Shown in pieces: positions 42,603 to 46,288 of a stretch of 64,000 nt of DNA. The DNA lies in NCBI GenBank assembly GCA_913057235.1, contig CAJXNI010000001.1:124001-188000 (forward strand). Direction: 5' to 3'. The position numbers and the translations under genes are program-made. Every line of letters starts with the position of its first letter. Positions within the stretch are counted from its first letter, which is position 1. The notes under the pieces were generated by a model. The model ran no database searches and was not told the DNA's origin. It saw only the letters and a list, made by a program, of their open reading frames with translations. The DNA is from an uncultured Bacteroidota bacterium. Lineage in GTDB: Bacteria > Bacteroidota > Bacteroidia > Flavobacteriales > Schleiferiaceae.

Positions 42603-42635
42603 AAAAAAAAGCCCCTCCACTTTCGCGAAGAGGCT
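42603..42635 (-). terminator. Terminator after the PepSY-like/barrel operon
   Basis: On the minus strand, a GC-rich imperfect hairpin (AGCCTC ... GAGGGGCT around a TTCGCGAA core) followed by eight T residues, about 30 bases after the stop codon at 42664. Confidence 0.7.
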
Positions 42636-42663
42636 CCAAGGAGTGCTGAGCTCCTATCCCTGA

Positions 42664-43317
42664 TCATTTTTGGATGAGCTCCTTAAGGTTAAAGATTCCC
42701 ACCTTCACACCGAAGTTGATTAACAGGTGATTTTCGGGATCGGGAGTAATGCCCTCAGAGTAAGTGCTGGCAAGAGGTAGACGGTAAGAAGCACCAGCAT
42801 AAACACGGGCGTATTTGTGCAGGTTAAGCTCCACGGTTACACCTGGCTCCACAAAGAATTGGTAGTCCTCTCTTTCTAAGTCCATCCAATCATTATCACT
42901 ATCGTTATCAAAAGGATCATAGTCATCTACATCGGTTTCAAATACCCCCAAGTGTAAAGGGAAACTTAGGTGTACTAAACTGCTGGGCTTGATACGGTAC
43001 TCCAAGAAACCACTGTATTGCATAAAATCCACTTCAACGGCCTTTCCGTACAGTGACTCTAGGCTAGTGGGGCGAATATATTCGACCGACTCGCCATAAG
43101 AGGCACCGATAGTCCAAGACTCATTTAGTATCACACCGGCTTTGAACTGAGAAAACCATACACTTTCACCATACAATTGGCTGTTTTGCATTCCACCGCT
43201 AAGCACAAATCCATAGCTGTCTAGACCATCACCTGAGCCGCTGCCAATAAGAGTTTTAGTTTGTGCGTTTGCACCAAGTCCAATACTTAAGCTCAAAGCA
43301 AAAAATAACTTTTTCAT
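42664..43317 (-). CDS. Outer-membrane barrel-like protein, unknown function
   Basis: 217 residues with a clear signal peptide (KKLFFALSLSIGLGANAQ). Alternating strands follow (YGFVLSGGMQN, FKAGVILNESWTIGASYGESV, YSGFLEYRIKPSSLVHLSFPLHLGVFE, FFVEPGVTVELNLHKYARVYAGASYRLPL, INFGVKVGIF), typical of small outer-membrane barrels. An acidic insert (DVDDYDPFDNDSDNDWMD) resembles a calcium-binding or extracellular loop. It lies 48 bases after the PepSY-like lipoprotein gene and ends before a terminator; the two form an operon under a likely ECF-type promoter. Confidence 0.8.
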   Translation of the reverse strand: MKKLFFALSLSIGLGANAQTKTLIGSGSGDGLDSYGFVLSGGMQNSQLYGESVWFSQFKAGVILNESWTIGASYGESVEYIRPTSLESLYGKAVEVDFMQYSGFLEYRIKPSSLVHLSFPLHLGVFETDVDDYDPFDNDSDNDWMDLEREDYQFFVEPGVTVELNLHKYARVYAGASYRLPLASTYSEGITPDPENHLLINFGVKVGIFNLKELIQK

Positions 43318-43365: not shown

Positions 43366-44202
43366 TTAGTCGAAATCAGCGTACAAGAAGTTTCCATTAA
43401 AGTCAAAGTATAATTCCAAGTCATTATTTAATTCTACTTCGTACATGCTATCGTCTATCTCCGCCGAAACAATACTTTGATTCGGATAATTCTGTTGGAT
43501 ATAATCTAAAATTACCGTAGGAAGATCTGCTGGATTGATGATTTGGTCGTCAATTTCGCGTCCTAGAAAGTTTCCATTAAGATCGAAATACAACTCGATA
43601 CCGTTACTGAGGTAAATCTCGTAGTGATTGGGATAGCGATCTACCTCGACAATACTCGCGTTAGGGTAATTCTGGGTGATGTAGTCGCGAATTACCTGCG
43701 GCAGACTGCTTGGGTCGATCGGCTGATCATCGGCATCGGCATAAAGGAAATTGCCGTTACCGTCAAAGTATAACTCTAGGCCGTTGCTTAGGAAAACTTC
43801 AAACTCATCATCATCCCACTCGGCCCAAACAATGCTTACCCCCGGATAATTGGAATTTATGTAGTTGCGGATGGCGCTAGGCAAGCTACTGATGGCTACC
43901 GGAGTGTCATCATCACCATCTTTATTCCTTTCTTTGTGCAGTAAAGAGCCATTTAGGTCGTAATAAAACTCCCATCCCGTGCTTAGGCCGACTTCATAGC
44001 CAATGCTGGGGTCTTTTTCCGCGCTGCTGATAGAAGCGCTAGGGTAATTGACCTGCAAATGGTACTTAATGTTGGCGGGCAATTCGCTTACCGGGATGCT
44101 TTTAAACGAGTACGCTTGGAAATTCAAAGCTTGGTTCTCGTTGTCTTTATCACAACTCATTAAGGCCAAGGCTAAGGCGAAGAGTAAGACTGATTTTTTC
44201 AT
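43366..44202 (-). CDS. Lipoprotein with four PepSY-like repeats
   Basis: 278 residues. The signal peptide ends in a lipobox (LALMSC). The mature part is four ~60-residue units of the form LPxxIxxYIxxNYPxxSI ... EVxLSNGxELYFDxNGNFL, matching the PepSY-like (putative beta-lactamase-inhibitor-like) fold; unit starts are near residues 36, 102, 162 and 222. Units 2-4 are closest to each other. The sequence is very acidic (DDD and DD clusters). Such proteins are thought to bind or inhibit periplasmic proteins, but function is not established. It is divergent from an ECF sigma factor gene and shares its promoter design. Confidence 0.88.
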   Translation of the reverse strand: MKKSVLLFALALALMSCDKDNENQALNFQAYSFKSIPVSELPANIKYHLQVNYPSASISSAEKDPSIGYEVGLSTGWEFYYDLNGSLLHKERNKDGDDDTPVAISSLPSAIRNYINSNYPGVSIVWAEWDDDEFEVFLSNGLELYFDGNGNFLYADADDQPIDPSSLPQVIRDYITQNYPNASIVEVDRYPNHYEIYLSNGIELYFDLNGNFLGREIDDQIINPADLPTVILDYIQQNYPNQSIVSAEIDDSMYEVELNNDLELYFDFNGNFLYADFD

Positions 44203-44231: not shown

Positions 44232-44262
44232 ACTATACCAGCCAATTTATAAAAAGGTTGCC
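44232..44262 (-). promoter_or_regulatory. Candidate ECF-type promoter for the PepSY-like operon
   Basis: Minus strand: GGCAACCTTTTT (44251-44262), an 11-base spacer, then GGTATAGT (44232-44239), ending 29 bases before the ATG at 44202. Same elements and spacing as the plus-strand promoter at 44282-44312. Confidence 0.72.
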
Positions 44263-44281
44263 CAGGAGTAATTTTTTTTGA

Positions 44282-44312
44282 GGCAACCTTTTTGTCCGTT
44301 TTAAGGTATAGT
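44282..44312 (+). promoter_or_regulatory. Candidate autoregulated ECF promoter for the sigma factor gene
   Basis: GGCAACCTTTTT (44282-44293), 11-base spacer, GGTATAGT (44305-44312), 33 bases before the ATG at 44346. The two 12-base upstream elements form a perfect inverted repeat 19 bases apart, with a run of eight T between them. Confidence 0.72.
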
Positions 44313-44345: not shown

Positions 44346-44918
44346 ATGAAGTTACATGAAACTCAGAAGCTAATGCCCTTGATTCAAGCCTGCGTAAAAG
44401 GTAAAAGGCGGGCTCAAAACGAGCTTTATCAAATAGCCTATCCTTACGCCATGAGCGTGGCTTTGCGCTACGGGGACGACCGTGATCACAGTGCGGAAAT
44501 TGTTAATGAAGCTTTTTACAAGGCTTTTAGTTATTTACAAAGCTTTGATCCTTCGCAATCTTTTGCATCATGGCTAAGGAAGATTGTAATTAACACCTCT
44601 TTAGACCATTTAAAATTGCGACGCAAGCAAAAAGAGCTCCTAGAGCCCATTGAGGAGCAAAGCCATATAGAACCTGAAACGGACGAATTAATCGAGGCTA
44701 TTGACGCCCAGGCTTTATTACATGAGATCCAAAAACTGCCTCCAAGCTATCGCATGGTCTTTTCCCTGTTTGCGGTAGAAGGCTATTCGCACCAAGAAAT
44801 TGCTCAGCAACTGGGTATTTCTGAGGGCACTTCCAAATCAAACTACCACAAGGCTAAAGCTAAATTGAAGCATCAGTTATATCAATTAGGTCTAGCGCCT
44901 CAAAAGAAAGCATTGTAA
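44346..44918 (+). CDS. ECF-family RNA polymerase sigma factor
   Basis: 190 residues. Region 2 is PYAMSVALRYGDDRDHSAEIVNEAFYKAFSYLQSFD with SFASWLRKIVINTSLDHLKLRRK, the typical -10 binding helices. Region 4 is LPPSYRMVFSLFAVEGYSHQEIAQQLGISEGTSKSNYHKAKAKLK, a helix-turn-helix for the -35 element. It has no extra domain. It shares one base with the next gene, which has the layout of a membrane anti-sigma partner. Matching promoter elements on both sides of the intergenic region suggest that it activates itself and the opposite operon. Confidence 0.93.
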   Translation: MKLHETQKLMPLIQACVKGKRRAQNELYQIAYPYAMSVALRYGDDRDHSAEIVNEAFYKAFSYLQSFDPSQSFASWLRKIVINTSLDHLKLRRKQKELLEPIEEQSHIEPETDELIEAIDAQALLHEIQKLPPSYRMVFSLFAVEGYSHQEIAQQLGISEGTSKSNYHKAKAKLKHQLYQLGLAPQKKAL

Positions 44919-46288
44919 TGAGTGAGAGAGGAAAATTTGAAGATCAATTACGCGCTAAGCTCGAAGCTTTCGAGGCGCCTTATGAAGCTAATGACTGGAA
45001 AGCCTACCGCAAGCTGTATGGCAGAAGGGGCATCGGACGCCTCTTAAAGATTTGGTACTTACCTTATCTATTCAGTGCCTTCTTATTTGGTTTAAGCTGG
45101 CTTTGGTTTCCGAAATTAAATATGGGGGGGCGTGGCTTCTCAAATGAGGCACGAGTTGATACCTTGTTTATTGAGAAAACGGTACAGGTATACGATACTT
45201 TTCTTCTTCGCGATACGGTTTATGTTCATACCCATGTCGCTCCGAGTGGCCGAAGACCAGCGCTTTCCGCAGGCTATTCTTCCGTTCCGACTAAGTCGAA
45301 TGCCTACACTCTAAGTCAAGTGAGCAGGCAAGGGCGGTCCAATATTTATCCGGCCCAGCCTAGTTCTATGGATAAACCTGGCCTTTCTGAAGAAGCGCCA
45401 GCTCTAAGCGCGGAAGAACAAGAAAGGCGGTTCATGCAAGACAAGCTTGCCGAGCTACAGGATCCTCGAGCTTTAAGAAATGACTCCCTTTTAGCACCCG
45501 GGACAGATACTACTGAATTAATAGCCCATACTGCTTTAGATTCCACGACCAGTCTTGGGCCCGAAAAACATAAGGATACCGCGGCGGCAGCTAGCACCCC
45601 CCCCTTTGGAGAGCCTTTGGAGGAAGAAAAACGTAGGGCTCTATTGGCAGGTTCACAGGAGAAGCTAAAAGCCCAAGACTACCGCTTACTTGTCGGTCCC
45701 CAAACCCGTTTATTCTCGCCATTCTCGAGCTCCACCTTTGACACCTACGGTGGGGTTTTCATAGGAATGGAGCTACGAGCCGGTATCAATCGCCTCGAGC
45801 TTGATCTAGCCGCACATTACGGTTTCATGCACCATGAGTTCCGAGACCCACAGACCATCCCACTGGAGCGGCAGGCTTTATTTCCGGGTTACTTGAGTTT
45901 AAATCGGCCGGCAGACTTTATTGAAGTTAGGACGCAACAGTTATTATTACCCATGAGCTTGAGTTATATCCCTTGGTATAACGATGTTTGGACTTGGCGC
46001 GCTCAAGCAGGGGCTTTAGGTAATTTATTGGTGCGGGAACAATTTGAATACGGCTACCGCGATGATGATTTCGACGACATTGAGGACATAGACTCGAACA
46101 TCGATGATCGGCGGTTTAAGTTTAGCCACTTGCAATTGGGCAGCTCCATTAGCTATACCTATCATCGAACATGGAGTTTAGAGGCTGGAATAAGTTACTA
46201 CCATCCCTTAGAGGAAAAATTGGGTTTAAGTAAACTTGACCCGGCAGCACTTTCGCTGAACATAGGCTGGTATTGGCATTTTCTTTAG
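44918..46288 (+). CDS. Membrane-anchored protein with barrel-like C-terminus, probable anti-sigma/sensor partner
   Basis: 456 residues in three parts. Residues 1-47 are charged and likely cytoplasmic; 48-68 (WYLPYLFSAFLFGLSWLWF) form a single membrane helix; a Ser/Pro/Glu-rich linker extends to about 250. From about 250 the sequence has alternating aromatic strands (YGGVFIGMELRAGINRLELDLAAHYGF, LLLPMSLSYIPWY, LEAGISYYHPL, ALSLNIGWYWHFL), like a small outer-membrane barrel ending in an aromatic/hydrophobic residue. Its one-base overlap with the ECF sigma gene suggests an anti-sigma role, with the C-terminal part sensing the envelope. I know of no exact family match. Confidence 0.78.
   Translation: MSERGKFEDQLRAKLEAFEAPYEANDWKAYRKLYGRRGIGRLLKIWYLPYLFSAFLFGLSWLWFPKLNMGGRGFSNEARVDTLFIEKTVQVYDTFLLRDTVYVHTHVAPSGRRPALSAGYSSVPTKSNAYTLSQVSRQGRSNIYPAQPSSMDKPGLSEEAPALSAEEQERRFMQDKLAELQDPRALRNDSLLAPGTDTTELIAHTALDSTTSLGPEKHKDTAAAASTPPFGEPLEEEKRRALLAGSQEKLKAQDYRLLVGPQTRLFSPFSSSTFDTYGGVFIGMELRAGINRLELDLAAHYGFMHHEFRDPQTIPLERQALFPGYLSLNRPADFIEVRTQQLLLPMSLSYIPWYNDVWTWRAQAGALGNLLVREQFEYGYRDDDFDDIEDIDSNIDDRRFKFSHLQLGSSISYTYHRTWSLEAGISYYHPLEEKLGLSKLDPAALSLNIGWYWHFL

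Follow-up and report, generated by a model that had tools for sequence, protein, structure and literature searches.

Predicted ECF-type promoters lie back to back between a sigma/anti-sigma operon and a PepSY_like lipoprotein operon in a Bacteroidota genome

Autoregulated ECF promoters, such as those of the Escherichia coli sigma-E type, carry AAC in the -35 box. In Bacteroides thetaiotaomicron, the Das1–Dma1 and Das2–Dma2 pairs each consist of an ECF gene adjoining an anti-sigma gene, with the Dma protein laid out as an N-terminal domain, a membrane helix, a disordered tether and a C-terminal barrel, and the free Das sigma factor raises the expression of other envelope genes (nigD1 in the case of Das1) (PMC13088901).

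The locus we describe here lies in a 64,000-nt stretch of DNA (the window) and is similar to Das/Dma in having an ECF gene beside a putative anti-sigma gene of the same domain layout. It differs in that the induced neighbour would be a PepSY_like lipoprotein together with an outer-membrane protein, encoded in a divergent operon, and no vesiculation phenotype is known for the window system. With autoregulated ECF promoters in general, it shares the AAC core followed by a T tract, the fixed -10 spacing and a sigma gene that is probably among its own targets, but the -10 box is GGTATAGT rather than of the GTC type and there are two copies placed back to back, 19 bp apart. The repeats of the lipoprotein belong by sequence to the same family as the PepSY_like (PF11396) periplasmic proteins BT_0922 and BT_0923 and the solved PDB relatives 3db7 and 3due, although in the window protein four repeats are found within one lipoprotein, and the Bacteroides and Parabacteroides PepSY_like examples that we saw adjoin either genes for two-component systems or an ECF factor of a different type. 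The type of circuit is already known and the locus is a good example of it, with one possibly new partner gene. The features to which we refer are as follows:

44282–44312, plus strand: predicted promoter of the sigma operon, GGCAACCTTTTTGTCCGTTTTAAGGTATAGT, made up of GGCAACC (-35), a T tract, an 11-base spacer and GGTATAGT (-10)
44232–44262, minus strand: predicted promoter of the PepSY operon, GGCAACCTTTTTATAAATTGGCTGGTATAGT, with elements and spacing as in the plus-strand site
44251–44293, no strand: 12-base perfect inverted repeat, comprising both -35 elements and T tracts around a 19-base A/T-rich middle
44346–44918, plus strand: ECF sigma factor of 190 aa with regions 2 and 4 (Pfam Sigma70_r2 and r4_2; TIGR02937)
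44918–46288, plus strand: predicted Dma-type anti-sigma gene, 456 aa (AlphaFold model; OmpA/OmpW/OmpX-type barrel matches)
43366–44202, minus strand: lipoprotein with four PepSY_like repeats and a signal peptide ending at Cys17 (PF11396, E=2.6e-50, four stretches)
42664–43317, minus strand: probable outer-membrane beta-barrel protein of 217 aa, second gene of the PepSY operon (ORF with an N-terminal signal)
42608–42637, minus strand: probable intrinsic terminator at the end of the PepSY operon (13-pair stem with a T tail)

The calls of an ECF sigma gene at 44346–44918 and a PepSY_like gene at 43366–44202 made in an initial annotation of this DNA hold, and the sigma factor can be assigned to the ECF proteins (group IV) as its 190 aa match PF04542 and PF08281 and no further domain. 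The predicted Dma-type anti-sigma gene is an addition, as it was absent from that annotation. Its start and the sigma stop share one base, and its product has no Pfam match. An AlphaFold model of the 456-aa protein, built with 21 proteins from equivalent positions, has helices at 4–17 and 27–36, a membrane helix at 39–63, a mostly disordered region from about 70 to 247, and strands at 250–454, about eight in number, which form the C-terminal barrel (pLDDT reaching 95 in some blocks, with a mean of 65 for the whole model). The barrel has structural matches to the OmpA, OmpW and OmpX types, and 14 of the 22 aligned proteins have a match to the OMP_b-brl_2 family. The modelled layout and the one-base overlap suggest the Dma anti-sigma arrangement (PMC13088901). 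We note that two anti-sigma-like relatives (L009 31–1473, minus strand, and L010 2046–3470) have three N-terminal F..KL....F.FN...WE motifs before the membrane segment, compared with one copy in the window protein. The 217-aa protein of the divergent operon has no Pfam or NCBIfam match and is probably an outer-membrane beta-barrel.

Two promoter-like sites with the same elements and spacing had been described on opposite strands, with 12-base halves forming a perfect inverted repeat 19 bases apart, and both parts of that description were confirmed. The pattern GGCAACCTTTTT-N11-GGTATAGT has one exact match on each strand (44282–44312, plus; 44232–44262, minus), the two sites are identical at 20/20 element bases, and 100 shuffles of the 64-kb window give a chance expectation of none. 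The likeness is one of elements rather than a simple palindrome, again as first proposed: the 31-nt arms of the pair are 74% complementary, since the -10 boxes also agree whereas the spacers differ. When the whole source genome (2.83 Mb in 49 contigs) was searched, by pattern matching only, these were the only two matches to GGCAACCTTTTT-N11-GGTATAGT and also to the looser GCAACCTTTTT-N9-14-GTATA, so that the scatter of the motif through coding DNA which would have spoken against the promoters was not seen in this genome. With up to three mismatches allowed there were 55 matches compared with 35 for a reversed-pattern control, which is of similar order. A search of 396 genomes from the order gave 16 occurrences of GCAACCTTTT-N13-GTAT, about the rate of its reversed control, and the pattern is so rare that two copies inside 81 bp are far from chance. 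The 19-base gap separating the -35 boxes (44263–44281) contains a run of eight Ts, which could be an upstream element shared by both promoters.

The boxes and their spacing are kept in relatives. The nearest sigma homologues come from three species of one genus in the same family (G029, G030 and G031; 42–44% identity to the window sigma factor) and one more distant genome (L045; 45%), and GCAACC-N17-GTA is found upstream of the sigma gene in all four, although G029–G031 are not fully independent as they share a genus. Exactly 17 nt after GCAACC we found GTAT in G029, G030 and L045 and GTAA in G031, with spacers that are unrelated. The sigma-upstream site is the sole exact genome match to GCAACCTT-N15-GTAT in G029 and G030, a second match in L045 falls within coding sequence, and the G031 site deviates from the pattern (GCAACCAT...GTAA). 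An inverted repeat or hairpin is absent from all four. Conservation of the hairpin and not of the boxes had been named beforehand as evidence against promoters, and the opposite was seen, with relatives keeping the two boxes and no hairpin.

This pattern could be followed through a larger family of 80 homologous loci collected by sigma similarity, which include some close relatives and are not all independent. The top enriched 5-mer in the 160 bases upstream was GCAAC (63/80 loci, with 7.1 expected); it lies no more than 130 nt upstream in 59/80 loci, compared with 5/80 for the opposite strand, and downstream of it comes GTC (26 sites) or ATC (14 sites), for the most part 18 nt away. The window sites read GCAAC-N18-GTA on both strands and so have the family spacing, but with GTA. 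A scoring matrix trained on other genomes only ranked the plus site 1st (12.3 bits) and the minus site 5th (6.9 bits) among 127,928 window positions, and a sigma-70 promoter scan gave nothing above shuffles. The sites have the attributes of autoregulated ECF promoters, namely an AAC core in the -35 box and a -10 box at the family spacing, kept upstream of homologous sigma genes. The earlier suggestion that these are promoters of this ECF factor, with positive autoregulation, is supported at the sequence level by the boxes and spacing kept in the nearest homologues and by the GCAAC-N18-(G/A)TC pattern of the family. We found no published promoter motif for these ECF factors in the literature searched, the coverage of which was incomplete, and one may exist. 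The consensus we offer for testing is GCAAC, a T tract, and then GTC, ATC or GTA 18 nt after GCAAC, and it applies to a large Bacteroidota ECF group mostly paired with membrane-anchored anti-sigma genes, some of which are of the Dma type.

The inverted repeat invites other readings. As RNA it forms a strong hairpin (-23.5 kcal/mol, z -6.2) flanked by A and U tracts, and it might be taken for a bidirectional intrinsic terminator or attenuator having T tracts on both sides, with the GGTATAGT boxes incidental. This is very unlikely because the hairpin precedes both predicted starts and lacks conservation: it sits between divergent genes with no transcript to end there, it is missing from the homologues, which have a single GCAACC-N17-GTA, and the 8-base GGTATAGT boxes lie outside it and yet match at identical spacing. 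An Rfam search of the region gave no match. Perfect inverted halves like the 12-base halves here are also typical of dimeric operators, and the repeat could be the binding site of a dimeric regulator acting on both operons rather than a pair of sigma -35 elements. We find this hard to credit, as related sigma genes are preceded by a single half, which keeps its orientation and its fixed distance to a -10-like box, and no other regulator gene was seen between or beside the operons.

A further possibility leaves the plus site autoregulatory and has a paralogous ECF factor as the actual reader of the minus site. There are eight further ECF matches in the source genome and the GCAAC -35 box is common across the family, but two ECF paralogues of this genome have CAACCC boxes followed by GTC and not GTATAG. 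As the -10 boxes of these paralogues are of the GTC type and the PepSY site is the same as the sigma site in all 20 element bases, the PepSY site points to this sigma factor, and we regard its reading by a paralogue as improbable.

We consider it very probable, then, that both sites serve as ECF-type promoters for the sigma factor encoded at 44346–44918, which would be under the control of the Dma-type anti-sigma protein and would drive both operons. The sequence itself shows the site pair and its uniqueness, the boxes and spacing kept in relatives, and the domain layout of the anti-sigma protein. From these we infer how the circuit works, including sigma recognition, transcription starts, how the anti-sigma protein acts, what stress is signalled and what the PepSY protein does, along the following lines. 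In the resting cell, the Dma-type anti-sigma protein would keep the sigma factor at the inner membrane until the outer-membrane barrel or the periplasmic tether reports envelope stress, when the freed sigma factor would drive both divergent promoters. Raising its own operon, with sigma and anti-sigma genes, would make the switch self-amplifying and later self-limiting, and the same sigma factor would induce the PepSY lipoprotein and the outer-membrane protein. The inverted repeat would be a by-product of the back-to-back arrangement of two identical -35 elements. A more elaborate proposal, in which the two operons make up a closed minimal regulon, feedback from the PepSY lipoprotein reaches the Dma tether or barrel in the periplasm, much as RseB acts on RseA, and the mirrored promoters thereby form a complete envelope-sensing feedback module which recurs in distant Bacteroidota, seems doubtful to us.

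The coupling of PepSY to such a sigma factor may be new. Coupled expression of the two operons, as originally suggested, is favoured by the identical site here and by one independent parallel in a distant Bacteroidota genome (L122), but it does not hold generally, since the locus lacks a PepSY gene in the closest relatives (G029, G030, G031 and L045). PepSY_like genes are uncommon in the family (12/88 genomes), with one in the source genome and none in G029–G031. In L122, a PepSY lipoprotein with four repeats, 33% identical to the window protein, is encoded near an ECF/Dma-like module and has the promoter motif of the sigma gene in common with it: one copy of GCAACCTTT-N7-TTTTTGCACTA precedes the sigma gene and three tandem copies precede the PepSY gene, with no other exact match in that genome. 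The motif copies are found at 1249–1582 and 2774–2800, and as part of the tandem array falls in a repeated stretch of about 121 bases next to a gap in the assembly, duplication of a DNA element could instead account for the extra copies. Elsewhere, the L122 motif was seen with one mismatch at about 1501 of L251 (minus strand; G787 C473), in a stretch without ORFs of at least 80 aa.

Among ten further multi-repeat PepSY loci, some of which are on short contigs, a closely related ECF gene adjoins in 1/10, and the link therefore recurs without being general. In that one, G766 (L235), a three-repeat PepSY gene lies directly before the related ECF gene, with GGCAACGGTTTT and CGTATGGG upstream; the motif spacing there exceeds that of the window sites by one base and the sigma gene has a FecR-like partner rather than one of the Dma type, so this parallel is only suggestive. 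We rejected a candidate from Parabacteroides distasonis (L256 768–1841) in which a PepSY-like gene is divergent from an ECF gene, as the sigma factor and the next protein belong to a different type and no inverted repeat is present in the gap. This pair is located near a two-component system and more PepSY-like genes. PepSY_like lipoproteins emerge from our analysis as candidate targets of such a system, or as candidate components of its feedback.

Further targets were sought in the source genome with GCAACCTTTTT-N12-GTATA, which had no additional site at zero or one mismatch and four sites at two mismatches, three within reading frames and one intergenic. The intergenic site (TCAACCTTTTT-N12-GTAAA; L037 1501–1528, G000 C8 87992–88019, plus strand) may be a weak third target, either of this ECF factor or of a related one. 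It lies 43 bases before an ORF which encodes a large, probably secreted protein.
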